43,634 bases of DNA, from contig JAFUYP010000018.1 of the NCBI GenBank assembly GCA_017470535.1, positions 1 through 43,634 of the forward strand, in the 5' to 3' direction. A program made the position numbers and the translations under genes. Positions 4,019-26,530 of this stretch are shown here, piece by piece; positions within the stretch are counted from its first letter, which is position 1; every line of letters begins with the position of its first letter. The notes under the pieces are model-generated. The model was not told the DNA's origin, ran no database searches, and was given only the letters and a program-made list of their open reading frames with translations. The stretch comes from Ruminococcus sp. Lineage in GTDB: Bacteria; Bacillota; Clostridia; Oscillospirales; Ruminococcaceae.

Positions 4019-4047
4019 TTGACATCTCTGCAATAATGTGGTATAAT
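4019..4047 (+). promoter_or_regulatory. Consensus sigma-A promoter for the sigma factor / secretion locus
   Basis: A perfect TTGACA (4019-4024), a 17-bp spacer and a perfect TATAAT (4042-4047) give one of the strongest possible housekeeping promoters. It precedes the ECF sigma gene by about 135 bp, leaving a ~130-nt leader in which I see no riboswitch or attenuator. No other good promoter was seen before 26501, although internal ones are not excluded. Confidence 0.8.
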
Positions 4048-4183
4048 TTATCGTGTATAAGTGTGTTCGGCAGTGAATAAAAATGCTTATATATTTAATC
4101 AAATCCCTGAAATACTCCCAACAGAAGTTTTCCGATTTTTTTACAAAACCTGCAACCATACAACAGGAAGAAGGGTATTATTT

Positions 4184-4654
4184 ATGAACGCTGAAGAAAT
4201 AGTCAGGACTTACAGTGATATGATATACGGTGTCGCCATGCGCTATGTGCGCAACCGAACAGATGCCGATGAGGTGTATTCTGATGTCTTTTACAGATAT
4301 TTCAGACGTGAGCGTACCTTTGACAGTGAGGAACACCGCAAAGCCTGGCTCTTGCGGGTCACGGTCAACTGCTCTAAGGATAAGGTCATGAACCGCAGTT
4401 ATCCAGAGGAGCTGACAGATGATATGTTCGGTTCGGTATCGTTTTCCGGAATGGAGGGTACTACGGTCGAGGATGTCATGAGTGTGCGTGATGCTATCAA
4501 GAAGCTGAGCGATGAAAAGCGTGAAGTTATTGAACTGTTTTATTTCAGCGAACTGAGTGTAAATGAGATCTCATCAATGCTGCAGCGGCCTGCTAATACT
4601 GTCAAGTCGCAGCTATCAAGAGCAAGGAGCGAATTAAAGGCTCTGTTGAGTTAA
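4184..4654 (+). CDS. ECF-type RNA polymerase sigma factor
   Basis: The 156-residue product (ATG behind GGAAGAAGG) has the two-domain layout of extracytoplasmic-function sigma factors. The sigma-2 region is at residues ~5-65 (SDMIYGVAMRYVRNRTDADE, then DVFYRYFRR and WLLRVTVNCSKD). The sigma-4 helix-turn-helix is at ~100-152 (LSDEKREVIELFYFSELSVN, then EISSMLQRPANTVKSQLSRA). It should direct polymerase to a small regulon. As first gene of the locus it probably activates some of the downstream genes or a surface programme elsewhere. No classical membrane anti-sigma factor follows; that position holds the 70-residue protein at 4677. The family is certain, the target promoters are unknown. Confidence 0.9.
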   Translation: MNAEEIVRTYSDMIYGVAMRYVRNRTDADEVYSDVFYRYFRRERTFDSEEHRKAWLLRVTVNCSKDKVMNRSYPEELTDDMFGSVSFSGMEGTTVEDVMSVRDAIKKLSDEKREVIELFYFSELSVNEISSMLQRPANTVKSQLSRARSELKALLS

Positions 4655-4676
4655 CTCATGAAAGGGGAACTTTGCT

Positions 4677-4889
4677 ATGGAGGAACAGAGGATCGAGCAA
4701 GCGTTACACGCACTTGCAAGAGCAGTGCCCCGTACTCCTGAAAAAACAGTCAGGGATATGGAACGCACAGTAAGAGCGCTTGAACGGGAAAGAAACAGGC
4801 GTGCAGGAAAGACCGCTGAGCCGGAGAAAACGGTACAGCGCAACAGGGAGATGCGAAAAACTCCCCCGAAAGCGGCGAGAAAGCTGTAA
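4677..4889 (+). CDS. Small highly charged protein next to the sigma factor
   Basis: This 70-residue frame starts 22 bp after the sigma gene behind AAAGGGGAAC. It is very rich in Arg, Glu and Lys (for example RDMERTVRALERERNRRAGK), likely mostly helical, with no membrane segment or Cys/His zinc motif. Its slot is normally that of an anti-sigma factor, so it may be a soluble regulator or the remnant of a longer anti-sigma gene. The first 25 residues (EEQRIEQALHALARAVPRTP) resemble the short cytoplasmic start of some Clostridial anti-sigma proteins. That resemblance is weak. Confidence 0.5.
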   Translation: MEEQRIEQALHALARAVPRTPEKTVRDMERTVRALERERNRRAGKTAEPEKTVQRNREMRKTPPKAARKL

Positions 4890-4906
4890 AACATCTCGAA
4901 AATACA

Positions 4907-4931
4907 GGCAACGGATCTTCGACGGGATCGT
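4907..4931 (+). promoter_or_regulatory. Possible ECF-type promoter before the pilin gene
   Basis: GGCAAC (4907-4912) and CGT (4929-4931) are 16 bp apart and lie ~40 bp upstream of the pilin start. ECF promoters commonly have an AAC-containing -35 and a CGT-containing -10 at this spacing. The signal is short, so it is only a candidate for autoregulation by the sigma factor at 4184. Confidence 0.2.
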
Positions 4932-4972
4932 GGATTTAGCAAATAAAAAAACAATTTTTTAGGAGGATCATT

Positions 4973-5398
4973 ATGAAAGGTAAATTAACAGTAAACATGA
5001 TCAGGAACAGAGCAATGAGGATCGCAGCTTCATTAGCTACCTTTGCAATGGTCGGGATGACTAACGCAGGTACTATGATGGCTTCTGCGAAGAAGACGGC
5101 AAGCTCCAGCACATCAGATGTGGATCTTGAAAAGGTGACTTCACCTATCATTGGTCTTATCAATAACGTACTTAATGTACTTATCCCGCTCGTAGCGGCA
5201 GTCGGCGCAGTATTCTGCATCACGCTCGGCGTTAAATACTCCCGTGCGGAAGAGCCTCAGGAGAGAGAAAAGGCAAAGCAGCACTTAAAGAGCGCTATCA
5301 TCGGCTTTGTGCTGGTATTCGTTCTTATAGTAGCGCTCAGACTTGGTGAGCCTATCCTCAGAGAATGGATGAACGATGCAGCTCCTCAGTCAAACTGA
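4973..5398 (+). CDS. VirB2/TrbC-like pilin subunit of a Gram-positive type IV secretion system
   Basis: The 141-residue protein has a perfect ribosome site (TAGGAGGATCATT). It has a signal-like N terminus (to about residue 40), then two hydrophobic helices at ~58-85 (IIGLINNVLNVLIPLVAAVG) and ~108-123 (AIIGFVLVFVLIVALRL) joined by a charged loop (SRAEEPQEREKAKQHLK). This two-helix hairpin after a long signal is the VirB2/TrbC layout and matches the pilin-like conjugal transfer proteins (Mbov_0395 type) of Gram-positive mobile elements. The protein probably sits in the membrane and assembles into the channel or a short surface filament. It is the first structural gene of the secretion locus. 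The call rests on size, topology and neighbours. Confidence 0.7.
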   Translation: MKGKLTVNMIRNRAMRIAASLATFAMVGMTNAGTMMASAKKTASSSTSDVDLEKVTSPIIGLINNVLNVLIPLVAAVGAVFCITLGVKYSRAEEPQEREKAKQHLKSAIIGFVLVFVLIVALRLGEPILREWMNDAAPQSN

Positions 5399-5446
5399 TC
5401 CTGTAAGCATAAAGACCGGTCGTAAGACCATAAAAGGGTACTTGAT

Positions 5447-7282
5447 ATGAAACGTTTTGCTAAAAGAAAGCTAAAACTTAAAATTACCGCAGTTGCTGCC
5501 GCACTCGCTGTGTCGTGTGCGGCTGGCAGCTCGTATTTTGGCGCTTTGCCGGCAGTCAGTGCAAGTGAGACTAAGGAGACCGAAGGCGAAGCAGTCGGCG
5601 GCGAGATAATGAAGGACGTCCTTGGTGAAACTACATTCTACCGCTGGACAAGGGTCAAGGAATCGGTCCCTGCCGAGATCAAAACCGGCAAGGAGGTACC
5701 TTCGCTGTTTTTCTTTGCCAAGGACGGCGACGGCGGCTCTGACCGTGGTACATACACGGGCGGCATCGTAGCGCCTGGCAGTGTCTATATAGGTGAGAAC
5801 GCGTCTCCTATCGCAGGCGTATCAAGCGATCATGTACGCAAAGATAATGAATCACCTTTTAGCGGTCTTTCAAAGACTAATAAGTATTCAGCGGACGTGG
5901 TAAAGATCGGTGCCAAAGCCAACACTAATGAAGATACATATGCCGATCCTAATGCTGATGTGTTTTATACCGACAGCGACAGAGACTGCCTGTATCTGAG
6001 CTATACGGGCGACAGCAGTAAACATACCAATATAAACGGCAAAAGCCCCGAATTCAATATAAGGCTCAAAAGCAGTAATGACCATAAATATTATCTCAGC
6101 GGTGACTATATCAAGGAATTCGATCATAAAGCAGTAACACAGGCAACACTTATTGTATATTCCGATCATGTACCTGGGCATAAGTGGACGCTAAAAAACC
6201 TGAACAAGAGCGGCAGAGGTGTCGTTTTCCAGGCATTCCACTACGAGGATTCATGGACTCACGCTGACGCTACGCTCAAGCAGTCGTCTGACGGCTACCT
6301 CTATTGTCAGGAGGACTCTTATATGACCGATGACCGTTTCTTTAAATGGTATGTAGGCGAGGCTATGAGATTTAACTGCGTCAAGGATGATACGACTATC
6401 CGCAATGGTCAGATACTCTCTATCGATGAGTCGAGCTATGCCGATGCAAGCGGTGACGTGCAGAAGAATAACGGCGTTATCATTCCCTCCGGCAAGACGA
6501 TAACAATAGAAAAGGGCGGCGTGCTCAGTGTCGGTGCAGCGCTTATAAATAATGGTACTATTATAAATAAGGGCGGCACTATACTTATAAAGAACGGCGG
6601 CTCTATATCTCCGTTTCTCCAGAGCGGCGGAACAAGAGAGAACGGCTGCGGCGAGATATTGTGCGTAAACGGCGACATCATCATTCAGCAGGGCGGCGCA
6701 TTATATGCCGGTATGCTCGATGACAAGGGTATGCAGGTGCCTTTCTACCTTGATGACAGCTCAACTCTTATTGATATGGGTCTGCTCGTATATGGCAGTA
6801 TGCGTCTTGGCAACGCCGCACGAGTTGAGGTATATGAGACCGGCAGAGCCCGTGGCGGATATTTCAATACCGACGGCAAAAAGAGCACCGCCTCTTATAT
6901 GTCACTTGCGAATTTCGGGTTTACTACTGAAGAAGAGCTGTTTGAACATTTTGCAAAGTTCGGCGAGACAACTATAGGTAAGATACCTATGGATAACGGT
7001 GAATACAGGTATTATTCCGAGAAGATCTGTGTTTCCAAAGTCACTGATATGATGTATTTCTTTAATGACAGGTTTTATAATGACGACAATAAAGACGGCA
7101 CCGGGATCATGAGGTATGTTGATAAATCCGGTTTTGAAGATATGATCATGTTGTTTGGCGGAGTGTATATGGCAGATAATATTAATAATGAGCCGCATAT
7201 ATATGTAAGCCAGAACCATGAAAGCAATTTTGATGACCCTATCGGCACTAAAAAGTTCAAACCGGAGGTGCTTGTAATATGA
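5447..7282 (+). CDS. Secreted beta-rich protein of the secretion locus, function unknown
   Basis: The 611-residue protein begins with a basic signal peptide (hydrophobic to ~35, probable cleavage after VSA near residue 39). It has no second membrane segment and no LPXTG motif. Residues ~330-470 carry a ladder of short strands (VIIPSGKTITIEKGGVLSVG, then LINNGTIINKGGTILIKNGG), suggesting a parallel beta-helix like that of adhesins. The middle part is rich in Tyr, Asp and Ser. The stop overlaps the coupling ATPase start (ATGA), so the two are translationally coupled. I recognise no family. Exported with a type IV machine, it could be a surface component of the apparatus, an adhesin or a substrate. 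Confidence 0.72.
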   Translation: MKRFAKRKLKLKITAVAAALAVSCAAGSSYFGALPAVSASETKETEGEAVGGEIMKDVLGETTFYRWTRVKESVPAEIKTGKEVPSLFFFAKDGDGGSDRGTYTGGIVAPGSVYIGENASPIAGVSSDHVRKDNESPFSGLSKTNKYSADVVKIGAKANTNEDTYADPNADVFYTDSDRDCLYLSYTGDSSKHTNINGKSPEFNIRLKSSNDHKYYLSGDYIKEFDHKAVTQATLIVYSDHVPGHKWTLKNLNKSGRGVVFQAFHYEDSWTHADATLKQSSDGYLYCQEDSYMTDDRFFKWYVGEAMRFNCVKDDTTIRNGQILSIDESSYADASGDVQKNNGVIIPSGKTITIEKGGVLSVGAALINNGTIINKGGTILIKNGGSISPFLQSGGTRENGCGEILCVNGDIIIQQGGALYAGMLDDKGMQVPFYLDDSSTLIDMGLLVYGSMRLGNAARVEVYETGRARGGYFNTDGKKSTASYMSLANFGFTTEEELFEHFAKFGETTIGKIPMDNGEYRYYSEKICVSKVTDMMYFFNDRFYNDDNKDGTGIMRYVDKSGFEDMIMLFGGVYMADNINNEPHIYVSQNHESNFDDPIGTKKFKPEVLVI

Positions 7283-9315
7283 TAAAAGACCTCTTTTCAA
7301 AACTTATAGCAAAGATAAATTTCCGCAAGGTCATAACGTTCCTTGCCTGCCTTGCTGTCATTGTCGGAATGGGTGGCTGGGGCATTCGTGAGATAATGAT
7401 CTATATTGCCCATTTCCGTGAGAAACAGGATTTCAAGATCGACCCCTCGCTCATACTTGAGGGAAGAACATGGCTCATGGGTATCATAAGCCTTGTTATC
7501 GTTGGTATAATCTTCCTGTTTTCCAGCAATAATCTTGATCTGATGCTCGGCACAGGCAAGGGTCTGCTTGGCAAAAAAGGCAAGATAGATGTGGTTGAAG
7601 GCTCACTTGAAAACAGCCGTTTCCTCACAGATGCCGAAAGAGACAGATATTTTCCGCAGCATAACTATAAAGCACTCGGCAGCTGCAATAAGGACGGTAT
7701 CCCTGTCCGTGCTGTCGTTGATAAAAAAGGCAGTATGCACGTTAATTTCCTGTCCGGCGCTCACAGCCTGATAATCGGTGCTACCGGTTCAGGTAAGACG
7801 ACTACGTTCATCAATCCTATGATACAGCTGCTCGGCGCTACCGCCTGCGGCAGCTCGATGATAATGACTGACCCTAAGGGCGAGCTTTTCTCGCTGCATT
7901 CCAAATATCTCCAGTCAAGGGGTTATAAAGTATTATTGCTTGACCTGCGTGATACCTATTCGTCGAGCCGCTGGAATCCTCTCGGCGGTATCTGGGATAT
8001 GTATCAGGAATATATCGACGCCGGTAAAGGCATAATCGCACACCTTGACAGTATGAGCGACTACCCCGATCTTGAACGCCCCGACGGCGAGGGCGAGCCG
8101 GGTGAGCTGTGGTGCGAATGGAAGGGCAGGGCATATGCAGATCCCTCCCACTGCCAGGACGACGTCGCAGTAAAAAGACAGCAGATATATGACGAGATGT
8201 ACGAGGACTTAAATGACCTTGTATCGGTCATCTGTCCTGTTGAAAACGAAAAAGACCCCGTTTGGGAAAAGGGCGCACGTTCTATAATAATGGCGACCTG
8301 CCTTGCGATGCTTGAAGACTCGGAGGACCCGAGGCTCGGCATGACCAAGGATAAATTCAATTTCTTTAATATCAATAAAGCGCTTACAAACAGTGAAAAC
8401 GAGTTCCAGGCGCTTAAAGACTATTTCGACGGCAGGAGCAAGCTCTCGCAGGCGTATACACTTTCAAGACAGGTGCTTACGGCTGCTGATACTACGCTTT
8501 CTTCCTATATGTCGATAACATTCGATAAGCTGACGATGTTCAACGACCGAGGTCTTTGCGGTCTTACGAGCGCTACCGACGTTGATGCGGCGGCATTCGC
8601 TGATCAGCCTACGGCGCTTTTCATGAAGATACCTGATGAAAAGGATACCCGTCACGGACTTGCGGCGGTGTTCATTCTGTGTATGTATAAGGCGCTTATC
8701 AAGGTGGCGTCCGCCAGGGAAGATCTTTCTCTGCCGAGAAACGTCTACTTTATCCTCGATGAGTTCGGTAATATGCCGAAGATCGAGAAATTCGACAAGA
8801 TGATAACTGTCGGACGTTCAAGAAAGATATGGTTCAATATGGTCGTACAGTCCTACTCCCAGCTTTCAAACGTCTACGGCAACGAGGTAGCGGACATCGT
8901 CAAGAGTAACTGCGGTATGAAAATGTTTATCGGTTCAAATGATATAAATACCTGTGAAGAGTTTTCAAAGCTGTGCGGTAATATGACAGTCCGTACTACA
9001 AGTACATCAGCAGGCATCGGCTCTAAGGAGGGCGATATAAACCTCTCCGCCCAGACGCAGGTGCGTCCGCTCATCTACCCGAGCGAGCTGCAGATGCTCA
9101 ATAATAAAGAATCAACAGGTAATGCTATAATCGTTACTTTCGGTAACTATCCGCTCAGGACAAAGTATACGCCGAGCTATCTGTGCCCCTACTATCAGAT
9201 GGGTCAGATGGATATGGGCGAGCTCAGATCGCATATGTTCAGAGCGGACGAGGTATATTATGACCTTGAAGAAAGAAACGATATAGTTCTTGGAGAAGAA
9301 AGGAAGTCGTCCTGA
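7279..9315 (+). CDS. VirD4/TraG-family type IV coupling ATPase
   Basis: The 678-residue product has two N-terminal membrane helices (~19-44 and ~65-82), then a cytoplasmic ATPase. Walker A is GATGSGKTT at residues 167-175, with the characteristic following MTDPKGELF. Walker B is FILDEFGNMP with Asp494-Glu495. A sensor-like VQSYSQL follows near residue 525. These are the hallmarks of VirD4/TraG/TraD coupling proteins, which hand substrates to the secretion channel at the inner face of the membrane. In conjugation the partner is a relaxase-DNA complex, but no relaxase is encoded in the window, so a protein substrate should be considered. It overlaps its upstream neighbour by 4 bp and the next gene by 1 bp. 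Confidence 0.9.
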   Translation: MIKDLFSKLIAKINFRKVITFLACLAVIVGMGGWGIREIMIYIAHFREKQDFKIDPSLILEGRTWLMGIISLVIVGIIFLFSSNNLDLMLGTGKGLLGKKGKIDVVEGSLENSRFLTDAERDRYFPQHNYKALGSCNKDGIPVRAVVDKKGSMHVNFLSGAHSLIIGATGSGKTTTFINPMIQLLGATACGSSMIMTDPKGELFSLHSKYLQSRGYKVLLLDLRDTYSSSRWNPLGGIWDMYQEYIDAGKGIIAHLDSMSDYPDLERPDGEGEPGELWCEWKGRAYADPSHCQDDVAVKRQQIYDEMYEDLNDLVSVICPVENEKDPVWEKGARSIIMATCLAMLEDSEDPRLGMTKDKFNFFNINKALTNSENEFQALKDYFDGRSKLSQAYTLSRQVLTAADTTLSSYMSITFDKLTMFNDRGLCGLTSATDVDAAAFADQPTALFMKIPDEKDTRHGLAAVFILCMYKALIKVASAREDLSLPRNVYFILDEFGNMPKIEKFDKMITVGRSRKIWFNMVVQSYSQLSNVYGNEVADIVKSNCGMKMFIGSNDINTCEEFSKLCGNMTVRTTSTSAGIGSKEGDINLSAQTQVRPLIYPSELQMLNNKESTGNAIIVTFGNYPLRTKYTPSYLCPYYQMGQMDMGELRSHMFRADEVYYDLEERNDIVLGEERKSS

Positions 9316-10277
9316 TGAGATTTAGTGGACTGCTTGCGCTGCCGCTTTGCGTGTTTATGACGGTCACGGCAGCTGCTTCCGGTACTGCTATTGATATGGA
9401 TTATGACGGTCTTGTTGATCCTCATACCGGTGAGCCTGCCTATGTGACAGGCACCGATGAGGAGCAGCAGAGCCAGACTGTCACACTTGCAGACGGCGGC
9501 GTTTATGATAAGGAAGAGGATACCTACAAGTATTATGCCCGTGGGCAGACTAAGTGTATCTCTTCAAACGTTGCAAGCGGTATGATAACTACTGATGAGG
9601 TAAGTATCGAGGTAGATGATGATATGGATGTTTCGCTCTACTGCGACGGCGAGCTCGTTACAGAAGCGGATTTTTCACATATAACCGATACAGGCAGCTA
9701 CACTGTGTTGACTAATGAAACTGAAACAGATCAGCAGCTGATGACCTTCAGGATAGTTTCCGATGTTACGGGCGATATTGAGCTGTATGACCTTCCTGCC
9801 GGCTTTGTTGTCAGGGAGGTATCCATAGACGGTGTCGAACAGGAAATAAACGACAAATCAAAGATAGACTTTTCAAAAGAAGGCAATTACATTATAACAT
9901 ACCGCTGCCGTGCGACGGCGATAGATTATGGTATGGAATTGTATATAGACCATACAGCCCCCGATGTTATTTTAAATGGCGTTGAGGACGGTAAAGCAAG
10001 AGGACCTGTCACACTTACAGGTATGACAGATTCTGACAGTGTCACGGTGTTCTATAATGATAACGAGATCAAAATGGATGACGACAATACAGTCAGATCA
10101 CCGGGAGATTATGAAGTTATAGTGACAGATGATGCAGGCAACGAGCAGGTCGAGCAGTTCAGGATAGAGATGTATCTTAACGCTCAGGGCTTCTGGTTCA
10201 GCCTGTTGACAGCAGCTGTCATCATTCTTGGGGCTGCGTATATGTACAGATCAAGAACGAGATTGAGAGTGCGTTGA
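9315..10277 (+). CDS. Type I membrane surface protein with Ig-like domain
   Basis: The 320-residue protein has a signal peptide (residues 1-~22), an extracellular part and a single C-terminal membrane helix (~291-309) followed by a short basic tail (RSRTRLRVR). Residues ~210-285 look like a bacterial Ig-like domain (DHTAPDVILNG..., GDYEVIVTDDAGNEQVEQFR). The start codon overlaps the stop of the coupling ATPase (TGATG). Its exposed position and placement between two channel genes suggest a structural or adhesive accessory of the apparatus. No specific family name is assigned. Confidence 0.75.
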   Translation: MRFSGLLALPLCVFMTVTAAASGTAIDMDYDGLVDPHTGEPAYVTGTDEEQQSQTVTLADGGVYDKEEDTYKYYARGQTKCISSNVASGMITTDEVSIEVDDDMDVSLYCDGELVTEADFSHITDTGSYTVLTNETETDQQLMTFRIVSDVTGDIELYDLPAGFVVREVSIDGVEQEINDKSKIDFSKEGNYIITYRCRATAIDYGMELYIDHTAPDVILNGVEDGKARGPVTLTGMTDSDSVTVFYNDNEIKMDDDNTVRSPGDYEVIVTDDAGNEQVEQFRIEMYLNAQGFWFSLLTAAVIILGAAYMYRSRTRLRVR

Positions 10278-13395: not shown

Positions 13396-13422
13396 TTTCA
13401 GCTTTTGAAAGGAACACACGCA

Positions 13423-17276: not shown

Positions 17277-17576
17277 ATGGATATAAAACTTGTAGACAGA
17301 GGTGACACAGGAGAACTGCTGCTCAGCGGCAGGCTCGATGCTACAAATTTCAAAGAGGTCGAGGTGCTGTTTATGCAGATGGCTGACCGCTTTGTGAACC
17401 TGACACTTGATATGAAGGATCTTAAATTTGTGTCAAGCGCAGGTCTGCGCTCACTGCTCAAGCTCTATATGAAGATACACGCCAGGGGCGGAGAGCTGCG
17501 TGCTGTGAATGCAGCACCACACATCATAGAAGTATTTGAAATGACAGGATTTGCGGAGATGTTAAATATCAGATGA
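17277..17576 (+). CDS. STAS-domain anti-sigma factor antagonist
   Basis: The 99-residue product is a single STAS domain of the SpoIIAA/RsbV type: GELLLSGRLDATNF, then LDMKDLKFVSSAGLRSLL, ending HIIEVFEMTGFAEML. Ser54 in VSSAGLR aligns with the serine phosphorylated by anti-sigma kinases in this family. The dephosphorylated form normally binds and removes the anti-sigma factor. The start is 2 bp past the VirB4 stop and the stop overlaps the next start (ATGA), so it belongs to the operon. The PP2C phosphatase at 24052 is the obvious partner; the kinase is missing from the window. Confidence 0.88.
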   Translation: MDIKLVDRGDTGELLLSGRLDATNFKEVEVLFMQMADRFVNLTLDMKDLKFVSSAGLRSLLKLYMKIHARGGELRAVNAAPHIIEVFEMTGFAEMLNIR

Positions 17577-20500
17577 TAAACATGAGAGCTTTCGTAAAAA
17601 CAGCAGCAAGAAGAATATTTGCCATGGCACTTGCAATGTCAATGATGCCGGGCGTGCTGCTCACAGAAGATGTACTGGCTGCCGCACAGTCTGCACAGTC
17701 CGAAGCGGCTCAGCAAAAGACTGCCGTTACCCAAAATGGTGAGACGCTCGGTACACAGGCTGAGTCGGCAGTGAATTGGGTCGAGACCGGTGTTGACGGC
17801 AGCGAGGATCCTACACTTGATCCTCTGCCGCCTGAGCTGTTTGCGCCCCAGAGCGGCGATAATATCTCACAAGTTGATGATAAACTCTATACACTGACCG
17901 TTGCAACAGGTGTGAAGGCGGGCAGCAGTGTGGAGTACTTTGCTGTGCGCTATAAGGATGACGACGGTGTAGCCCAGACTAAGTATATCTTCCCGAAGAC
18001 TCATTCATATCAGGCAACGTTTGATTATTATGATAAATTTCTCAATAACAGCGGTTCGGCTGCCAGGCATTTCACCGATACTGCTTCGGGCAATAGTATA
18101 AACTTCAACAGCCGGGAAATGGAGAGCATAAACGAAAAAAAGGATACTATACTGACAGACTTCGGTTATTCAAGGAATAAAGAAAACAGCGCCACTGCAC
18201 TAAAATCGTGGAGCGTAGATGAGTTTTTCTTCAGAGCTGAAAACGGTCTGTCGGAAGTCACAGGTATCGAGGCGTTTATCTCAAAGGGCTCATGGACTAT
18301 ACAGGGCGTCACTGTCAGCCAGGTGACTGAGATAGGCGGCAGATGTGAGTACGGATTCTATTCGGGACAGTATTTCCTGGCACTCGGCAAGAAGAGGATC
18401 TCTGAGCTTAAAGGCAAGCAGAGCGGAGCCGCAACTATAAATGCGAAGAATGATACACTTGTAAATGTCGGCGGTAAGGGCTCGGCATTCTTCTCGTTGT
18501 CTAAACCTAATGAAAAGAAGGCTGTTTCGAGCAGCTCGCAGAGCCACCTGTATTCTTTCAGATTTGATTTTGCGGATAAGGAAGGCGCAGGTATCGAATC
18601 GCTGCTCAAAAAAACTATCAAGAAAAATGATGACCCTATCGGCGAAGGCGTTGATGAATCACTTGCAGTCGAGATAGAATATATAGATGTGAACGGCTGG
18701 ACAAGAAGTATCACTATGCCTGTGCTTCTGTCAGTGTTGGGGCAGTATAAGCTGGCAAATGACTCTGTAAGAACTGTCGGCATTGCCCAGAGCGGAGATA
18801 CCATCGCATTTACAGGCTGCCTGCCGGAGTTTTCAAGCCTTGCCTCGGCAAGACTGTATGTCGGCAAGACTGCACTTGACAAGCTGAAAAAGACCGCAGG
18901 TCTTGAATATACCAAAGCTATAAGCAAGCGTATCTCAAATAACCCGACGCAGTATTCGGATGATGACATATCGCTCTCGGGGTTCTCTGTATATGAGGGT
19001 ACCTGCCGTATGTCAAATACCGGCGACGGAACGGATATTGTTACAGGAGAGTACCTTAAAAGCTATTCGTATGGCTATACCTTCTCGAGTGCAGATCCGC
19101 TGTCGTACTTTACTACAACAAAGGCGGACGGATATAAGATAAATGTAAATACCTCCGATAAACTGGAGATAAAGAAATTCAAAACAGGCGATAAGATCAT
19201 CGGTGCAAGCGGTGTGTCAGGTGATTTCCTGATAGCTCTGAGAACTGATGACAAGAAAAATGCAGGCACTGACGGCAGGATAAGCGTAAGACTAAAATAT
19301 CAGGACACGCAGGGTAAGAACAAGCAGTCAAAAATGTTAGATACCAAGGCGATGTCAGGGGACTTTTACGGCGGCTGGAGCAATACAAAAGGCACAGTCA
19401 ACGATTTCGGCTATACATATGGCGTATCGCCCGGTAATACACTTGAAATACCGGTAACACTTGATGATGTGCTTACTATAACGAGCCTGGATATTACTCT
19501 TGAGAGAGGCGCTGATGAATGGTCGTGCGGCGGCGTGGCTGTCTATACGCTTGATAAGATAGGTAAAAAGCGTATCTATGCGCAGGATATTTCCGCAAAC
19601 GGCGATAGCTCTGAGTACCGCATCGTAAGAACGCTCGACAAGACTCTGCTTCCGCCATTCCCGCTGGCGGTAGACAGATTGATACAGGGCGGCGATGATT
19701 ATGACTTCCCGGTAGGCAAGGGCGTAGTCGTTGACAATAATGAGATAGATTATAACTCTATGCGTTATGCTATGACATATCAGCAGACAAAGCTAAACCT
19801 CGGGTTCATTAAGAAAAAGAAGATCTACGACATTGCAGTCAGGGTCGCTGATGATGCCCGTACTGCGAATGATAACGGTGACTCAGGCTCTGTAAATAAA
19901 TTCTACTTCCAGCTTGTGTTCAAAAACGGCAGCAGTGCATTCGTGCTTGCGAACCAGCAGCTGTCGGCAGACGGCTTCCGTTCAGGCGTTACGGAGAATT
20001 TCTCTATCGCCGTCAACCGTGATTACAGCGATGTAGTGGCTGTAAGAGTTATTCCCGAGGACGTTTCCGAGGACAGCGAGATCTTCGATAAGCTCAATAT
20101 CGACAATATCACGATCACGGAAAATGCAGCAGGCGGCACATCTGTGCAGTATGTTGTAGACCCGGTCGGCTGGATAGATATTGACTACTATGATTCTGCT
20201 GAGGACAAATCGGTAAAGGGAAGAAGCGGCAGAACGATGCTTGAGCTTTCCAAGAGATATAATGTTTCGTATAAGAAGAACGTAGTAAACCTCGAGTGCG
20301 AGATAACAGCTCAGCCGTGGGATAGTACCTATGAGGATCTTCAGGCGAGCGTTTCCTGTGAGGTCGAGTATATTGATACTAACGATCAGCCGCAGACAAT
20401 ATCGTTTGATCTTATAAAGCGTCTGTATGAGTATATGAACCATACTCCGATAAGCTATGAGATACCAAAGGATTCGGAGTATGCAGAACTATATATGAAT

Positions 20501-22690
20501 ATGAATACAGTGTCCGACCCGAGGTATATGCTAAGACCGAACACGACCGACAGATTCCTTATGCCGGCACTGCCGGATCTTAAAACTATCAAGAGAATGA
20601 CGCTCACGGCGACCAGCAGAACTACAAAGCCGGGCAAGTGGGTCATAGGCGGCGTTTCTATATCCCGTGTCCTCAGTGACAACGGCACACTTTCGCTTAC
20701 CTCTGACGGTGAGTATGAGCGTGATATGGAGCTTGAGGATTTCGTGTCGAATGAAAGCTCTGAATATAAGAACGAGCTGTACCTCCCGGCAGGGATACCT
20801 GAGTCTATCACGATAGATTTCCCGGATAATAAGGTCACATGGAGCGAGGACAGATCATGGACCACGGCGGTCTCCAGAATGCCCGACTCTACTAATGATT
20901 CGCTCAATATCTATGTTTTCCCGAAAGCAGGCATAGATGATATTGAAGGAACGAGCGTAAAGGTCACTGCACAGTATGATATTGCGTATTCAAAGGTGCT
21001 TCAGGTCAAGAAGAGCAATATGAAGATATACGGCAGCGGTACAGCCGACTCAATGTATTATCTTATCGGAATGAGTGCGAGCGGTATCCAGAACCTCTCT
21101 GCGATAGGCATACAATGCAGAAAATCATCTATCGTATTTGACTATGCACTTGTAGAGCACGTCAGAGACGGTGTTGTCATGAATACATATTACTTTAATC
21201 TTGGCAATTCGTCAGCGGTGCTGGGACTGAGTGCCAAGCCTGACAGCTCAACGCCTGTATATCAGCCCAATCATCAGAAGCTGATGCTATCGTTTGGCGA
21301 AAGCACAAAGGAAATGACTCTCTTTACAAAGGATAATGATAATAATATCGCAGTAGCTATCAAGTACCGCTCGGCACTTGACAAGAGCAAGAATGAGTAT
21401 TATTCGCCTTATGTATATCTTACAGATGCAGGCATCAATAAGGTGTCACCCGGCTTGTTTGCGGAGATACCGTTTGATATACCGTATGTGCGTGAGATAA
21501 CGGGGTACAAGATAATATCCTTCGGTAATATAAAATCAAGCGTCGATATGGCGGCGGTGGAGAATTATGACTATTCGGAAAAGAACACCGACGAGGACGG
21601 AAACGCCGTTTATGAAGGTCTGACGCTCAAAAAGGCATACAGTATAAACAAGTCGGTCGATGTCATCAATATAGTTCAGGAATCCGGCGTTACCAAGAAG
21701 GGTACGACCGGCGCCGGCTCGGTAACACCTGTTACTATGATATTCAAGACTGCAAAGGCGGTCGAGGATAACGATACCGGGGAAGATCTTATCCCGATAA
21801 TTGATGATAACAAGATAGAAGCGACTATCACCTACCGTAACGATTCAAACGGCAAGGAGACCAAGGAGATAAAGGATCTCAGAAAGTATATCCAGAATGA
21901 GGACAGCAAGCAGTTTATCCCCGGAAAGCCGGTAACTACCAAGTTCTTCCTCCATGACTTTGAGAAGATCGAATCTATAACACTTAACCCGAAGAATGCT
22001 GATGGCAACGCTGTATGGGCTCTTGAAAGCATCGACGGCAATATAGCGAGCCGTATGATAAATTCTGAGATAAACCAGAGCAGTAAGGGTACGACAATAT
22101 CCTTGAAGGACGTGAAGCTCACCACAACGGTGCAGGCTGACGGTGAGTATCTGGGCGGTGTAACCGACCATGAAATGGGTATAACTCTTACAGGCGGAAA
22201 GAGCGCTATATTCGTGCCGACCGTCAAGGGCGATGAAAGTGGATTTGATGTCAAGGCAACATGGAAGGTCAACGATACGGAATCTGATGTCACTACCAAG
22301 ACGCTGACCTACGCTGCAGACGGCAGAGTAAGGTTTGAAGCGCCGGTAAATAACAGCGCAGTGCCTGATGTTTATGTGGTGACTTTCTCGGCGAAGGATA
22401 ATCCGTATATTCGGGACGTAATAACGATAACTGTACCTGTTAAGGAGCAGGCTGCCCGGTCGGGCGGTCAGACTGCCGGTGCAGCTGACGGCAGCTCCAC
22501 TTCAGACAGTACAAAAACAATTGATGCTCCCGCCGCAGACAGCAAGTCAGCAGCAGACAGCAAGACTGATGACAGTAAAGCATCGGACGAAAGTGAGGCT
22601 GCGGCTGACAGCACAGACAGTACCGACAGCAGCGACTCAAATATCATAGATGAGCCTGCCTCAGTAAATGCCGGCGAAGAATCAGAATAA
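17573..22690 (+). CDS. Giant secreted repeat protein (1705 residues) of the secretion locus
   Basis: The protein opens with a basic, hydrophobic signal peptide and probable cleavage after VLA or LAA near residue 37. The start may be the ATG at 17573 or the one at 17582. It has no other membrane helix and no LPXTG motif. It appears to be built from divergent beta-sandwich units. Each has a strand like VEIEYIDVNGW or VSCEVEYIDTNDQP and, later, a W-x-[ILC]-x-[GS]-[VI] strand (GSWTIQGVTV, DEWSCGGVAV, GKWVIGGVSI, AVWALESIDG), a pattern that recalls PLAT or CBM-like domains. The last ~70 residues are Ser/Asp/Ala-rich and disordered. I know no named family. It may be the surface-exposed effector, adhesin or wall-spanning part of the machine. 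Confidence 0.78.
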   Translation: MINMRAFVKTAARRIFAMALAMSMMPGVLLTEDVLAAAQSAQSEAAQQKTAVTQNGETLGTQAESAVNWVETGVDGSEDPTLDPLPPELFAPQSGDNISQVDDKLYTLTVATGVKAGSSVEYFAVRYKDDDGVAQTKYIFPKTHSYQATFDYYDKFLNNSGSAARHFTDTASGNSINFNSREMESINEKKDTILTDFGYSRNKENSATALKSWSVDEFFFRAENGLSEVTGIEAFISKGSWTIQGVTVSQVTEIGGRCEYGFYSGQYFLALGKKRISELKGKQSGAATINAKNDTLVNVGGKGSAFFSLSKPNEKKAVSSSSQSHLYSFRFDFADKEGAGIESLLKKTIKKNDDPIGEGVDESLAVEIEYIDVNGWTRSITMPVLLSVLGQYKLANDSVRTVGIAQSGDTIAFTGCLPEFSSLASARLYVGKTALDKLKKTAGLEYTKAISKRISNNPTQYSDDDISLSGFSVYEGTCRMSNTGDGTDIVTGEYLKSYSYGYTFSSADPLSYFTTTKADGYKINVNTSDKLEIKKFKTGDKIIGASGVSGDFLIALRTDDKKNAGTDGRISVRLKYQDTQGKNKQSKMLDTKAMSGDFYGGWSNTKGTVNDFGYTYGVSPGNTLEIPVTLDDVLTITSLDITLERGADEWSCGGVAVYTLDKIGKKRIYAQDISANGDSSEYRIVRTLDKTLLPPFPLAVDRLIQGGDDYDFPVGKGVVVDNNEIDYNSMRYAMTYQQTKLNLGFIKKKKIYDIAVRVADDARTANDNGDSGSVNKFYFQLVFKNGSSAFVLANQQLSADGFRSGVTENFSIAVNRDYSDVVAVRVIPEDVSEDSEIFDKLNIDNITITENAAGGTSVQYVVDPVGWIDIDYYDSAEDKSVKGRSGRTMLELSKRYNVSYKKNVVNLECEITAQPWDSTYEDLQASVSCEVEYIDTNDQPQTISFDLIKRLYEYMNHTPISYEIPKDSEYAELYMNMNTVSDPRYMLRPNTTDRFLMPALPDLKTIKRMTLTATSRTTKPGKWVIGGVSISRVLSDNGTLSLTSDGEYERDMELEDFVSNESSEYKNELYLPAGIPESITIDFPDNKVTWSEDRSWTTAVSRMPDSTNDSLNIYVFPKAGIDDIEGTSVKVTAQYDIAYSKVLQVKKSNMKIYGSGTADSMYYLIGMSASGIQNLSAIGIQCRKSSIVFDYALVEHVRDGVVMNTYYFNLGNSSAVLGLSAKPDSSTPVYQPNHQKLMLSFGESTKEMTLFTKDNDNNIAVAIKYRSALDKSKNEYYSPYVYLTDAGINKVSPGLFAEIPFDIPYVREITGYKIISFGNIKSSVDMAAVENYDYSEKNTDEDGNAVYEGLTLKKAYSINKSVDVINIVQESGVTKKGTTGAGSVTPVTMIFKTAKAVEDNDTGEDLIPIIDDNKIEATITYRNDSNGKETKEIKDLRKYIQNEDSKQFIPGKPVTTKFFLHDFEKIESITLNPKNADGNAVWALESIDGNIASRMINSEINQSSKGTTISLKDVKLTTTVQADGEYLGGVTDHEMGITLTGGKSAIFVPTVKGDESGFDVKATWKVNDTESDVTTKTLTYAADGRVRFEAPVNNSAVPDVYVVTFSAKDNPYIRDVITITVPVKEQAARSGGQTAGAADGSSTSDSTKTIDAPAADSKSAADSKTDDSKASDESEAAADSTDSTDSSDSNIIDEPASVNAGEESE

Positions 22691-22713: not shown

Positions 22714-23553
22714 ATGTACGATTTCTTGCTTTTTGTAAAAAAACACAGGGTAATATCGGGCGTGATACTCGGGCTTGTATGTGTGGGTCTTGTCATATGC
22801 TTGTATTTGCTTTCAAAAAGTCCTCAAAAGCTCGCAAGCGAAAGTGGAGAGGAAACTGATGAGGCGACGATAAGCAGCTATTTTGAGAATACCGATTATC
22901 CTGTCACAGTGGAAAGCACAGACCGGGCACTCGATATATCGCTTGACGGCTCGGCAAGCGCTGACCTTAAATGGGAGTATACAGTCAATGATGACAGTAT
23001 CACCTATATTGAAGAAAACAGCGGCGAGAGCGAGGGAAAGCTCGATATTACGGTAAAGCCCAGGTCTATCGGCTATGCAAAATATACCTTCAAACGCTCG
23101 GGAGATGCATATGATGCGGCGATAATATATGTCAATACCGTAGTATGGGAGAATAATGACGGCACTCTTAATATAAGACTTTCTGATATTTCTCAGGGCA
23201 GGATCTCCGGTATGGTAGGGGCATCTGATACAGAGTATCCGTATATAGTCAGCGGCAACACGGTGATCTTGCAAAACCACGGTGACTGGGAGCTGACCGC
23301 TGATGTCCCGGAGGGTATCCCCGAGAGCGTTTACAGTATCATCAAGTTTACAGACGATGAGGGCAGAACAGGTTTCTCGGTGAGTATGGATGTGTCTGAG
23401 GCGGCGACCAACGATATTGTTGATGAAAGGGTGTATTCGAGCAGGCTGCTTTTAAAGAGCAAGAAGCTCGGTATGGAGCAGCGTTTCACACTTGAAGTCG
23501 ATGAGGATATGGAATGGATGCTCATACCCGTGGAGGCTTCCGATGAAGATTAG
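22714..23553 (+). CDS. Membrane-anchored extracellular beta-rich protein, unknown
   Basis: The 279-residue protein has a short cytoplasmic start (MYDFLLFVKKHRV), one membrane helix (~15-34, ISGVILGLVCVGLVICLYLL) and an outside domain of about 240 residues. That domain is rich in Asp, Ser and Tyr, with beta-type segments such as SADLKWEYTVNDDSITYIEE and GYAKYTFKRSGDAYDAAIIY that suggest Ig- or BACON-like folding. The gene follows the giant protein by 23 bp and overlaps the next gene by 11 bp. I recognise no family. A bitopic protein in this position would suit a VirB8-like or sensor role, but there is no sequence evidence for that. Confidence 0.7.
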   Translation: MYDFLLFVKKHRVISGVILGLVCVGLVICLYLLSKSPQKLASESGEETDEATISSYFENTDYPVTVESTDRALDISLDGSASADLKWEYTVNDDSITYIEENSGESEGKLDITVKPRSIGYAKYTFKRSGDAYDAAIIYVNTVVWENNDGTLNIRLSDISQGRISGMVGASDTEYPYIVSGNTVILQNHGDWELTADVPEGIPESVYSIIKFTDDEGRTGFSVSMDVSEAATNDIVDERVYSSRLLLKSKKLGMEQRFTLEVDEDMEWMLIPVEASDED

Positions 23554-24037
23554 TAGTGAAAGGCTCAGGCGCAAAGAGATAAAGAAGATCCTTCTTGGTA
23601 AGCTCGTCCCGACAGGTGACGGGCGGCTTACCGCAGGAGGTGTAACATGGGTGACGCCGTGGGGCTTTTCCGACGGGTCTATCAGTGTTATTGCATTTGG
23701 TATAGGACGAAAAAGAATAAGATATAAGTCAGTTCTTAAAAACAATAAACAGGTATTGTTTCAGGCGGGCAAGGCAGTGAAGAATATAGGCAACAGCCTG
23801 TATATCCAGACCTCGCCTGATGCTGTTGCCTGCTACATCAGGGGCGGAGTGTTCCGTCCGACGGTGCTGCTTTTAGAGGAGCAGAAAAATAAAGACAAGG
23901 GACAGAATGAATTCGTGCTTTCGGTTTACAGCGGAAGGGCGCTTTTTGCGTTTTTAGCGAGAAACCGAGCGTTAAAGAGCTTTGAAAAGTGTATGGAGGG
24001 CAAGCTGGTACGCAAAAATGCCCCGGATCAAGAGTGA
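23543..24037 (+). CDS. Unknown soluble basic protein of the secretion locus
   Basis: I start this 164-residue gene at the ATG at 23543 that overlaps the end of the previous gene (GATGAAGATTAG); an earlier in-frame ATG at 23492 would overlap it far more. The product is basic (RRKEIKKILLGK, GRKRIRYKSVLKNNKQ) with alternating hydrophobic strands and no signal peptide or membrane segment. It is therefore probably cytoplasmic, between a membrane protein and the phosphatase. I recognise no family or catalytic motif. It might bind the phosphatase or a secretion ATPase, but only its location supports this. Confidence 0.68.
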   Translation: MKISSERLRRKEIKKILLGKLVPTGDGRLTAGGVTWVTPWGFSDGSISVIAFGIGRKRIRYKSVLKNNKQVLFQAGKAVKNIGNSLYIQTSPDAVACYIRGGVFRPTVLLLEEQKNKDKGQNEFVLSVYSGRALFAFLARNRALKSFEKCMEGKLVRKNAPDQE

Positions 24038-24051
24038 GAGGAGTGAGTATA

Positions 24052-25812
24052 ATGGAGAGGAAGAAAAAGACCAGACATGGTAAGCTGATCGCACAGGTCG
24101 GGCTGATAACCTCTGCGATATTTATACTCACTATCAATTTTGTGGCGTATACCATGTATAAAAGCTCGGTAGACGGTTTTCTTGGCGGTCAGCAGACGTC
24201 GATCGAAGACAGACTCAATAATATAGAATTCAGAATATCGTTCCATACAAATCTTGAACAGATGGTGGATTTCTGGATGAATAATCCCAGTATCTCCAGT
24301 CAGTCAACAGAGCCTATCAGACCGGAGGAGTTTGTAGCAGATGTCTGCTATGGTTCTCCCGATCCTTATGAAACGAACTGGCAGAATAATTCATCAGATT
24401 ATGTGAAGAGCTATCTTTCAAAGATCGGTTACAGTTCTGTCAAGAGCGAGCTTGATATGGTTTCCCAGGATTATGATTATGACAGCGTTATGCTGTTAAG
24501 AAATATAGACGATAAGACAGGCTATGTGATCTCTGAATACAAAAAGAATCTCGAGCCTATGCAGCTTGGTGATATATTAGAATATGACCTTGAAGATCAC
24601 CCGGCTCTTAAAGAGGTGATCAACTCAGCTCCGGGGACATCACAGGTCCATTTTGAAAGAGTAGAGAATTTTACAGCAAGCGGTACGCAGTATATCGGAT
24701 ACAAGCCGTATTATTATGAAGACAAGCTGGTAGCGATCATCGCTATAAGCTACAACTGGAGCGCTTTTGAAAGAGAGATACGCTCAAGCATTTTCATAAG
24801 AATGGTGATAGGCGTATGTGCGCTTTTACTTGAAAGTCTTATAATATCGCTGCTGCTTTACAGAAAGGCGATAGTACCTGTAACAAAGATACAGCACAGT
24901 GTAAGAGGGTATATCGAAACCATGGACAGCGCTCAGGTGATAGAGGATATGAGCAAGGTCAAGCAGAAAAATGAATTCGGTGAGCTTAGCGAGGATATTT
25001 CCCGAATGGTGAATGAGATAGACAGGTATACCTCAGACAATATCAAGCTCGCAAAGGAGCAGGAGCGTGTTCTGGCAGAGCTGGAGCTTGCGGCTAAGCT
25101 GCAAAACGACTCGCTGCCAAAGGATTTCCCGGAGAACGACAAGTTCAGCCTGTTCGCATCTATGACACCTGCCAAGGAAGTCGGCGGAGATTTCTATGAT
25201 TTCTTCTTTATTGACAATGACCATATAGGTCTTGTTATGGCAGACGTATCCGACAAGGGCGTGCCGGCGGCAATGTTTATGATGATGTCAAAGAGCCTTA
25301 TCTTCAACTTTGCAATGCGTGGGTACTCGCCTAAGAAAGTGTTTGAAAACGTCAACGAACAGCTGCTTTTGCATAATGATGAGGGTATGTTCGTGACAGT
25401 ATGGTTCGGGATACTTGAGCTTTCAAGCGGTAAGATAGTTGCCGCAAACGCCGGTCATGAATACCCTGTTATAAAGAAGGCTGACGGAAGATTTGAGATG
25501 TTCAAGGAAAAGCACGGATTTATGCTTGGCTGTATGCCGGGAGTAAAATACACCGAATATGAGTTTACCCTTGACAAGGGCGGAGCGCTCTTTGTGTATA
25601 CCGACGGCGTTACCGAGGCGACCGCAAATGACGAGGAGATATTTGATAACGCCAGACTTATTTCGGCTCTGAATACAGAGCCTGACGCAGAGCCTGAGCA
25701 GATACTCAAAAATGTAAGTGCTGCGGTCGATGATTTTATAGGCGATGTACCGCAGTTTGACGACCTGACGATGATGGCTGTCAAGATGAAAGATGATGAG
25801 AGGAAAGTCTGA
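24052..25812 (+). CDS. Membrane sensor PP2C-type serine phosphatase (RsbU/SpoIIE family) with HAMP
   Basis: The ATG at 24052 follows GAGAGGAGTGAGTATA. The 586-residue protein has helices at ~15-37 and ~247-270 bounding a ~210-residue extracellular sensor. A HAMP-like linker (~271-330) and a coiled coil (LAKEQERVLAELELAAKLQN) follow, then the phosphatase domain. Metal and catalytic motifs are intact: GGDFYD (378-383), ADVSDKG (397-403), NAGHEYP, YTDG (516-519) and FDDLTM (569-574). By family, it dephosphorylates a STAS antagonist in response to an outside signal, releasing a sigma or other partner. The STAS protein at 17277 is the likely substrate. It overlaps the next gene by 1 bp. Confidence 0.92.
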   Translation: MERKKKTRHGKLIAQVGLITSAIFILTINFVAYTMYKSSVDGFLGGQQTSIEDRLNNIEFRISFHTNLEQMVDFWMNNPSISSQSTEPIRPEEFVADVCYGSPDPYETNWQNNSSDYVKSYLSKIGYSSVKSELDMVSQDYDYDSVMLLRNIDDKTGYVISEYKKNLEPMQLGDILEYDLEDHPALKEVINSAPGTSQVHFERVENFTASGTQYIGYKPYYYEDKLVAIIAISYNWSAFEREIRSSIFIRMVIGVCALLLESLIISLLLYRKAIVPVTKIQHSVRGYIETMDSAQVIEDMSKVKQKNEFGELSEDISRMVNEIDRYTSDNIKLAKEQERVLAELELAAKLQNDSLPKDFPENDKFSLFASMTPAKEVGGDFYDFFFIDNDHIGLVMADVSDKGVPAAMFMMMSKSLIFNFAMRGYSPKKVFENVNEQLLLHNDEGMFVTVWFGILELSSGKIVAANAGHEYPVIKKADGRFEMFKEKHGFMLGCMPGVKYTEYEFTLDKGGALFVYTDGVTEATANDEEIFDNARLISALNTEPDAEPEQILKNVSAAVDDFIGDVPQFDDLTMMAVKMKDDERKV

Positions 25813-26501
25813 TGAAGCTACTGTTTATCCGCCACGGCGAACCGGATTATGAAAAAGATTGCCTGACTGAAAACGGCAGGGTGCAGGCACAGCTGCTTGC
25901 ACGCAGACTTGAAAGTGAAGAGAAAATAAAGGCAGTTTATATCTCCCCGATGGGAAGAGCGGCGGAAACGGCGCAGGCTTATTTAAAGGGTAAAAATATA
26001 CCCTCAAAAATATGTGACTGGATGCACGAATTTGACGCTAAGGTGTCCGACCCCGACTGGGCTGAACCTGTCCCTGTCTGGGACTTATATCCAAAAAACT
26101 GGACAGAAAATGAAAACTGCTTTGACCGCAAAGCCTTTGCCGATGATGACCCTATAAAGCAAAGCGAAGTGCCGTCAAGATTTGAAGCTGTAAGAAAGGG
26201 TCTTGACGAGGTGCTTGCAGCCAACGGGCTTATAAGAGAAGGGGAAGTGTACATAAAAACGGACGATGCTGATACCACTCTTGCTTTTTTCTGCCACTTC
26301 GGAACGACCTGCGTGATGATAGCGCATCTGCTCAACATCTCGCCGATAATAGCTTTGCAGGGGTTCTCTGCCGAGCCTACGGCGATAGCGACACTTTGTA
26401 CCGACGACCGTTTCGGTGACAGAGTGAATTTCCGTATCCACGGTTTTGGTGACATACATCACCTCGGAAAAATAACCGGCAGCGGTGTAAACTACAAATG
26501 A
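25812..26501 (+). CDS. Histidine phosphatase superfamily protein (phosphoglycerate mutase-like)
   Basis: The 229-residue product has the RHGEP motif (Arg7-His8-Gly9-Glu10) with catalytic His8, the second conserved segment SPMGRAAETAQ and a C-terminal His162 in CHFGTT. It therefore has the full set for the phosphohistidine mechanism. No signal peptide, so it is cytoplasmic. The true substrate cannot be told from sequence; the family includes sugar, nucleotide and protein phosphatases. Its start overlaps the stop of the PP2C gene and it is the last gene before the terminator, so it is transcribed with the secretion locus. Whether it belongs functionally is open. Confidence 0.88.
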   Translation: MKLLFIRHGEPDYEKDCLTENGRVQAQLLARRLESEEKIKAVYISPMGRAAETAQAYLKGKNIPSKICDWMHEFDAKVSDPDWAEPVPVWDLYPKNWTENENCFDRKAFADDDPIKQSEVPSRFEAVRKGLDEVLAANGLIREGEVYIKTDDADTTLAFFCHFGTTCVMIAHLLNISPIIALQGFSAEPTAIATLCTDDRFGDRVNFRIHGFGDIHHLGKITGSGVNYK

Positions 26502-26505
26502 CCTG

Positions 26506-26530
26506 AAAGCCCCGTTTATCGGGGCTTTTG
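26506..26530 (+). terminator. Intrinsic terminator ending the secretion locus
   Basis: A 9-bp perfect stem (AAAGCCCCG / CGGGGCTTT) with loop TTTAT begins four bases after the stop codon at 26501 and runs into TTTTG. It marks the 3' boundary of the ~22-kb transcription unit. The ~130 bp that follow (26531-26659) hold no feature I can support. Confidence 0.88.

Follow-up and report, generated by a model that had tools for sequence, protein, structure and literature searches.

A probable protein-exporting, sigma-controlled type IV system resident on the chromosome of Ruminococcus sp. and related Clostridia

What does a type IV secretion-like locus without a relaxase do on the chromosome of a Ruminococcus? 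The question is raised by a 22-kb block (positions 4019-26530) in Ruminococcus sp. assembly GCA_017470535.1, contig JAFUYP010000018.1 (our contig C24), which was analysed over its entire 43634 bp (hereafter the window); the source genome is 2.12 Mb and 76% complete, and because the window is the whole contig, upstream context is limited to about 4 kb. All genes of the block lie on the plus strand, with ends that mostly overlap or nearly touch, in the series extracytoplasmic function (ECF) sigma factor, small basic open reading frame (ORF), pilin, orf611, VirD4, orf320, VirB6-like protein, VirB4, STAS protein, orf1705, orf279, an ORF of 164 amino acids (aa), SpoIIE-type phosphatase and histidine phosphatase. 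Pfam and NCBIfam scans together with the sequence bear out this gene list, order and single direction as first read from the letters alone, in what we call the original prediction, which had proposed a resident, non-conjugative organelle that moves proteins or builds a filament. From the components, their conservation, the distribution of a promoter-like motif and the co-occurrence of large proteins with the system, we infer that the block is, on balance, probably a resident, sigma-controlled chromosomal type IV system that exports proteins and does not move DNA, and that it is probably a protein-delivery machine with hardly any precedent among Gram-positive bacteria.

The core of a type IV secretion system (T4SS) comprises four genes of the block:

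4973..5398, plus strand: VirB2-like pilin (T4SS_pilin PF18895, E 1.3e-11; NF045849, 60 bits, cut-off 40)
7279..9315, plus strand: VirD4-type coupling ATPase (PF02534, E 4.4e-51; NF045973, 289 bits, cut-off 250)
10279..13395, plus strand: VirB6-like channel protein (NF045848, 162 bits, cut-off 90)
13405..17274, plus strand: VirB4 ATPase (P-loop_TraG, E 7.6e-19, above cut-off)

The VirB4 ATPase, the polytopic VirB6-like channel and the VirD4 coupling protein by which type IV membership is judged are all present. The VirB6-like protein also scores above the cut-off of NF045889 and has a long Gly/Pro/Ser tail, and VirB4 matches NF045975 at E 3.7e-158 (528 bits, under its cut-off of 590) and has membrane segments at its N-terminus, which resemble VirB3/PrgI in topology only, and an acidic C-terminal tail.

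This gene set recurs well beyond the window. A VirB4 search of 61 genomes detected it in the window genome and in five of its six congeners (68-71% identical), the sixth genome, in which VirB4 was not detected, being 58% complete; presence is not limited to one strain, whereas such a limitation is what the original prediction had named as speaking against it. A scan across a collection of 84,980 species genomes retrieved 111 relatives, from which 79 loci were kept (four of them, L045, L046, L056 and L066, being the already counted congeners G002, G006, G004 and G001); these are mainly titled Ruminococcus, Lachnospiraceae, Pseudobutyrivibrio and Eubacterium, and many titles name rumen or other herbivore samples. 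Within the 35 well-covered loci, which extend at least 9 kb upstream and at least 8 kb downstream of virB4, homologues of orf320, virB6 and orf1705 are present in all 35, virD4 in 34, the STAS, pilin and orf279 genes in 29, orf611 in 28 and the gene of the 164-aa protein in 26. Exactly the order virD4-orf320-virB6-virB4-STAS-orf1705 is kept by 25 of these loci, and the six genes are co-stranded in all 35. A VirB4 tree built by a quick method places the window with Ruminococcus rows in an 11-row clade (SH-aLRT 100; two rows labelled only Clostridia) and groups the Lachnospiraceae rows by genus, families being mixed in places. In even samples of genomes, the orf320 profile scored above 100 bits in 10 of 297 from the window's own family and, at E 1e-15 with distant variants included, matched 7 of 391 from the class; at the same E it matched 13 of 200 from a family on the Lachnospiraceae side, five of the 13 with a distant variant. 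The system is therefore patchy at high rank and stable within genera, which does not agree with a fully fixed one. Nor did the idea of a locus fixed beside core genes hold: ruvA, ruvB and ruvC had no match in the related loci compared, whose flanks reach up to about 10 kb (in two congeners about 20 kb), so that the gene set is conserved and its place is not, and ruvC linkage was rejected as a conserved feature. Of the neighbourhood comparison that had been proposed, then, the conserved gene set without a relaxase at the locus stood and the adjacency to ruvC in relatives fell. Single relatives add details of their own. L043 (genome G041), from another family, has VirB4 at 53% identity, four tandem VirB6-like genes and a STAS gene; the distant variants L180 and L181 each have two orf320-like and two VirB6-like genes, with two STAS genes around a gene for a 1260-aa lipoprotein-like protein in L181, and the distant variant L185 has an orf320-like gene of 1488 aa.

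Candidates for what such a machine might carry come from the relatives, in which charged proteins without a signal, about 500 to 3700 aa long, are encoded both near the locus and unlinked to it. Those up- or downstream of the core consist of 38-60% D/E/K/R/N/Q and mostly have no predicted membrane segment; they group into recurrent, mosaic families, and all 12 that were scanned stay below the Pfam cut-offs. Examples are proteins of 1820 and 1738 aa in tandem (L138), of 2031 aa (L141) and of 3733 aa (L182, unlinked). Charge and length were the criteria for the candidate set (88 ORFs), in which some housekeeping proteins remain (two SbcC-like and one other surfaced), so that random internal 30-mers of the same proteins are the fair control. 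Against these, the C-terminal 30-mers of 80 candidates are both disorder-prone and basic, with a mean net charge of +2.5 compared with -0.4 internally (p 4e-14); the last 30 residues of 69 other soluble ORFs average -0.3. Met-Pro occurs at the start or within the first 12 residues in 31 of 72 candidates and in 4 of 61 background ORFs. Taken alone, an [LV]G motif shows no enrichment in the tails (18 of 80 vs 17 of 69).

One domain of these proteins (alignment A11, 12 sequences, 246 positions) has invariant Q29, G34, C35, W36 and H155 and occurs, in carriers, in open frames of 773-3747 aa; it looks like a papain/C39-type protease, a call made on the residue pattern because Pfam Peptidase_C39_2 reaches only E 0.03 in a single scanned protein and a sequence search of the PDB gave no match up to E 5. 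In the 200 Lachnospiraceae-side genomes this C39-like domain, at 70 bits or more, is found in six of eight main-system carriers and in one of 192 others (G930). With the seed genome removed the figures are 5/7 and 1/192 (p=5e-8), with weak matches counted among the non-seed genomes 5/7 and 4/192 (p=1e-6), and with distant-variant genomes counted as carriers 5/12 and 1/187 (p=2e-6). Eight of the 11 strong matches in carriers lie on contigs other than that of the locus. Among the 61 relatives of the window, four of six carriers have the domain and, above 20 bits, none of 55 others does. Counts for further families are as follows: A8 gives strong matches in 2/7 non-seed carriers and 0/192 others (p=0.001), A5 is found in 5 of 297 genomes, all of them carriers and four of them the source of seed rows, and A9 is found in all six congeners (three non-seed, one without detected VirB4) and in none of 54 others, the window genome not being among its holders. 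These proteins, as likely cargo, go beyond what the original prediction foresaw, and they tip its choice between protein transfer and a filament towards protein transfer. In Ruminococcus flavefaciens YRD2003 (L050, 2177-4981), a 934-aa ORF begins like a cargo protein, including the C39-like domain, and ends as the C-terminal portion of VirD4, from which the Walker A region is missing; it is either a real fusion or an assembly chimera.

The regulatory features of the locus include a promoter-like motif that it shares with these large proteins:

4151..4180, plus strand: promoter-like motif TGCAACC-N-GGGTATTA, one mismatch, overlapping the start region of the sigma-factor gene; same in congeners
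4184..4654, plus strand: ECF sigma factor, 156 aa (Sigma70_r2, E 5e-11; r4_2, E 8e-13)
16631..16660, plus strand: second copy of the motif, one mismatch, in the 3' end of virB4, 616 bp before the STAS gene
17277..17576, plus strand: STAS protein of anti-anti-sigma type (PF01740, E 3e-13)
24052..25812, plus strand: membrane PP2C/SpoIIE phosphatase (PF07228, E 2e-47), with a region between two membrane segments

For the sigma factor, the ATG at 4184 appears a better start than the GTG at 4061. A bipartite promoter-like motif, TGCACC-N16/17-GGGTATTA, precedes cargo-like genes in relatives, overlaps the sigma-factor start and lies inside virB4. It was discovered as a dyad, TGCA-N18-GGGT, in 10 of 14 upstream regions of congener cargo-like genes, compared with at most 3-4 in 20 shuffles, and all 14 genes carry the motif when two mismatches and gaps of 13-18 are allowed, one of them only with its start shifted downstream. 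With at most one mismatch, a gap of 16 or 17 and the expectation taken from three mononucleotide shuffles, the Ruminococcus-side loci (510 kb) yielded 36 sites where shuffles gave a mean of 0.7, and the other loci (1568 kb) yielded 10 where shuffles gave 1.0, two of the 10 being one site in near-identical loci. A scripted classification of the 36 sites put 20 before charged ORFs, 7 at the sigma-factor start, 1 before another Met-Pro ORF and 8 elsewhere; read row by row, 18 precede cargo-like ORFs (one being the chimeric L050 frame), 8 are at sigma-factor genes, 7 are a single site inside virB4 in seven Ruminococcus-side loci, and 3 lie elsewhere, one with a secreted-looking protein, one with a membrane protein and one without an ORF. 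The distance from motif to start for charged ORFs is 31-69 nt (for the start used). Sites with a gap of 17 break the reading frame, and the signal is therefore in DNA or RNA and not in a peptide. The window holds the motif exactly twice, at the two places given above. Read in this way, the motif would be the promoter of the ECF sigma factor, and its presence at the sigma-factor gene itself agrees with the earlier proposal of a self-regulated locus.

The STAS protein and the phosphatase, which has weak similarity to SiaA, form a pair of the partner-switch type. No anti-sigma-type kinase was seen in the window locus; a cluster of small kinase-like proteins occurs in 18 relatives' loci (of 66 loci that span 13 kb or more), in 8 of which it sits immediately between the gene of the 164-aa protein and that of the phosphatase, and the one member scanned is HATPase_c_2 (PF13581, 1.6e-20). 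With this kinase of the relatives the partner switch would be complete. Across the 79 loci the ECF sigma factor is present in 19, a histidine kinase cluster in 21 and both in 3, so that the transcriptional regulator of the system seems to be exchangeable between loci. The anti-sigma-type kinase, the cargo-like proteins and the shared promoter-like motif are all new relative to the original prediction.

Further genes of the block are without a family:

4677..4889, plus strand: small basic ORF, 70 aa, recurring beside the sigma factor; no Pfam family
5447..7282, plus strand: orf611, probably exported; no Pfam family
9315..10277, plus strand: orf320, signal-like N-terminal helix, three Ig-like domains, C-terminal membrane anchor
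17573..22690, plus strand: orf1705, giant, probably exported, with an acidic Ser/Thr/Asp C-terminus
22714..23553, plus strand: orf279, membrane-anchored extracytoplasmic protein, with lipoprotein-like N-termini in some relatives
23543..24037, plus strand: conserved 164-aa protein without predicted membrane segment or family

Orf611, orf320, orf1705 and orf279 stay below the Pfam cut-offs, and so does the 164-aa ORF; the original prediction had spoken of four large components of no known family. The related loci compared contain 17 ORFs like the 70-aa one, which was present in 12 of the 79 named loci. An AlphaFold2 model of orf320 (pLDDT 89.9) consists of the N-terminal helix, Ig-like strands and the C-terminal helix, the domains being counted by eye, and Foldseek matched it to generic proteins built of tandem Ig domains, among them SiiE, an adhesin, and GhpA, a grappling-hook protein; with only such folds retrieved, a known T4SS part was rejected for orf320. 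VirB8 was likewise rejected for orf279, whose alignment looks Ig-like or lipoprotein-like.

Taken as a working machine, VirB4, the VirB6-like protein, the pilin and VirD4 would form an energised channel, and orf320, as an Ig tower standing on the membrane, may together with orf279, orf611 and orf1705 make up the part that crosses the wall and touches a surface or target. The ECF sigma factor, made from a housekeeping promoter, would recognise TGCACC-N16/17-GGGTATTA and activate the operon that follows it, an internal transcript of virB4, STAS and orf1705, and the dispersed genes of large soluble proteins. VirD4 could then take up the giant proteins, the putative substrates, by their basic, disordered C-termini, while the STAS/PP2C pair, joined in many relatives by the HATPase kinase, would set the timing of the machine according to an outside signal.

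Several observations weigh against export, or against extending it from the relatives to the window. No cargo was found in the window's own genome (G000) by three profile searches of the whole genome, and this is the main weakness of such an extension. The 1,145,693 of its 2,116,461 bases (54%) that were read hold no cargo gene and no motif site beyond the two of the locus; among the 713 ORFs of at least 200 aa in this part, the three matches to the candidate set are housekeeping members, and the charged ORFs look by eye like relaxases or other ordinary proteins. As the genome is incomplete, this result neither proves nor excludes cargo. G930 (L184), with no system detected, has a tandem array of about 1394, 1340 (C39-like), 1452 and 928 aa, and three more non-carriers have weak (23-bit) C39-like matches. 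The co-occurrence of A5 comes mostly from seed genomes (non-seed 1/6 vs 0/287, p=0.02), and counts among the congeners are not independent because they form one genus. The motif is rare outside Ruminococcus, overlaps the sigma-factor start codon, which is odd for a promoter, and was derived from G004-G006, so that only sites outside these genomes are independent (e.g. those of L050, L051, L065, L141, L178, L057, L061 and L182). Among the machine parts, no VirB8-like protein was recognised in the locus and no wall hydrolase (VirB1/CwlT) was named among the window proteins scanned; at least two of 110 flanking ORFs of relatives match Hydrolase_2, a survey that covers 25 of the 81 Pfam families found there and in which single relaxases or integrases may be missing from view.

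The block could instead build a surface filament or adhesion organelle, in which a VirB2-like pilus would bind plant fibre or neighbouring cells through the adhesins orf1705 and orf611 and the giant proteins would be cytoplasmic members of the regulon. The pilin, the likeness of the orf320 Ig tower to tandem Ig proteins such as SiiE and GhpA, the persistence of orf1705 and orf611 in all 35 and in 28 of the well-covered loci and the dockerin protein encoded just upstream in the window all fit such an organelle. We nevertheless consider it unlikely, given that 34 of 35 loci retain VirD4, which known systems require for substrates but not for pili, and that the giant proteins have the motif and basic tails in common, although for most of them neither a membrane segment nor a signal is predicted. 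Antibacterial use of the same proteins, as toxins of a contact-dependent weapon, would suit their size, mosaic diversity and protease-like domain, but no small immunity-like genes are apparent by eye (ORFs of at least 90 aa) between members of the arrays, and we regard this as very improbable.

A decayed or helper-dependent integrative and conjugative element (ICE), whose relaxase and integrase were lost or are encoded elsewhere, has in its favour that the components belong to families known from Mycoplasma/Spiroplasma ICEs and plasmids, that the system is patchy within its family, and that relaxases occur elsewhere in 28 of 55 carriers, the window's genome having four PF03432 relaxases on other contigs. 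The remaining 27 carriers gave no match to PF03432 (other relaxase classes were not searched genome-wide), and in draft assemblies, with the limits these impose, a relaxase shares a contig with the locus only in G004, G005 and G076, about 30, 25 and 62 kb away; those of G004 and G005 appear by eye to belong to separate small elements with their own recombinase or integrase and unrelated genes between. At the locus itself, no relaxase, integrase or hydrolase was named among 29 window proteins scanned against Pfam (ORFs from position 1983 onwards other than small ones, part of them at E<=1e-8 only), no integrase or recombinase was named in the window (no genome-wide integrase search was made), and no direct repeats of at least 18 nt bracket it among 20 of 30 repeat families, where short att sites could be missed. 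A conjugative element was rejected on these grounds, and with an intact gene set long conserved (VirB4 about 50-73% identical, genus-wise clades) and core genes downstream, the decayed or helper-dependent form is also improbable. The resident, non-conjugative character claimed by the original prediction is supported by the same gene set in many species, a relaxase-less locus at which no att-like repeats were seen and the many carriers without PF03432, and resident protein export remains the reading that we prefer.

Protein-delivering type IV systems are well established in Gram-negative bacteria. In the effector systems Dot/Icm and VirB/VirD4, export is relaxase-independent, coupled by a VirD4-type protein and directed by charged, disordered C-terminal signals on effectors encoded at unlinked sites, as proposed here, whereas the window system belongs to a Gram-positive monoderm, has other envelope parts and has putative substrates. 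The best named families for the pilin, the VirB6-like protein and VirB4 are those of Mycoplasma/Spiroplasma ICEs (NCBIfam Mbov_0395, Mbov_0396 and Mbov_0397), and of the best 8 listed among 1764 plasmid matches of VirB4, seven are Spiroplasma records and one belongs to another member of the Mycoplasmatota, the identity being about 28-32% across 45% of VirB4. Those ICEs are mobile, whereas no relaxase or integrase is named here, and the window locus adds the Ig tower, a giant exported protein, the STAS/PP2C pair and the sigma factor. SiaABC and RsbU-RsbV-RsbW switches likewise pair a membrane PP2C phosphatase with a STAS protein, the kinase being found in relatives' loci; here, in contrast, the pair sits inside a secretion operon, no kinase is seen in the window, and the sigma factor is ECF and not sigma-B. 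The type IV-like system of Streptococcus suis is Gram-positive and has been linked to a non-conjugative role, and we know of no regulon of giant proteins for it. According to the part of the literature available, the Gram-positive type IV systems well characterised so far are conjugative (PMC6540685). The closest published analogue found is that of Patescibacteria (CPR), described in the accessible portion of one study as a chromosomal, MPF-FATA-derived T4SS with VirB2-like pilins, mostly without a relaxase, monoderm-type as here and proposed to be co-opted (PMC12102498). It differs in phylum and in that virD4 is mostly not beside virB4, and the same portion makes no mention of orf320, orf1705, a sigma/STAS/PP2C module or giant cargo (PMC12102498). 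The type IV genes of Butyrivibrio proteoclasticus, reported in the portion of the paper at hand as serving pilus production and flanked by prepilin peptidases, read as different machinery (PMC2914790). No report of the present system was found in openly licensed PMC literature.

More tentatively, the system may represent a new class, a Gram-positive relaxase-less T4SS of herbivore-gut Clostridia that delivers giant mosaic effectors (up to about 3700 aa, some with a papain-like protease domain) into other cells, for which rumen protozoa or fungi are plausible, under a dedicated ECF-sigma regulon with partner-switch control. A resident and regulated system with linked cargo would let major fibre-degrading gut bacteria act directly on other cells. 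The gene set, motif and cargo families now have names that can be taken to the genomes of cultured isolates, for example Ruminococcus sp. FC2018, Pseudobutyrivibrio sp. YE44 and Eubacterium ruminantium FB3002.

The limits of the block and its last gene are as follows:

4019..4047, plus strand: sigma-70 promoter TTGACA-17-TATAAT, TG before the -10 (12/12 consensus, spacer 17)
25812..26501, plus strand: histidine phosphatase (Pfam)
about 26508..26530, plus strand: intrinsic terminator, read from the sequence

The consensus promoter and the terminator had been described as the limits of the block, and were found as such. No counterpart of this phosphatase was found among the related loci compared, and as the last gene of the block it is probably a bystander. 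Rfam had no match in the window at gathering scores. Downstream lie ruvC, ruvA, a GNAT gene, ruvB and genes for phosphoglucomutase, a transporter, tRNA pseudouridine synthase and Clp-type proteins; the ATG of ruvC, at 26906, is 404 bp past the last gene of the block, in keeping with the gap of about 400 bp noted earlier. Upstream are a dockerin/Cthe_2159 protein and, near the contig start (805-1596, minus strand), three tandem gene copies at 246-bp spacing, 81-88% identical, whose product is probably a small tail-anchored membrane protein. Directly before ruvC lies an inverted repeat (TAAGGCAACATCGCA / TGCGATGCTGCCTTA; 26696-26872, about 177 bp), imperfect in its match, that looks like a small non-autonomous transposon.

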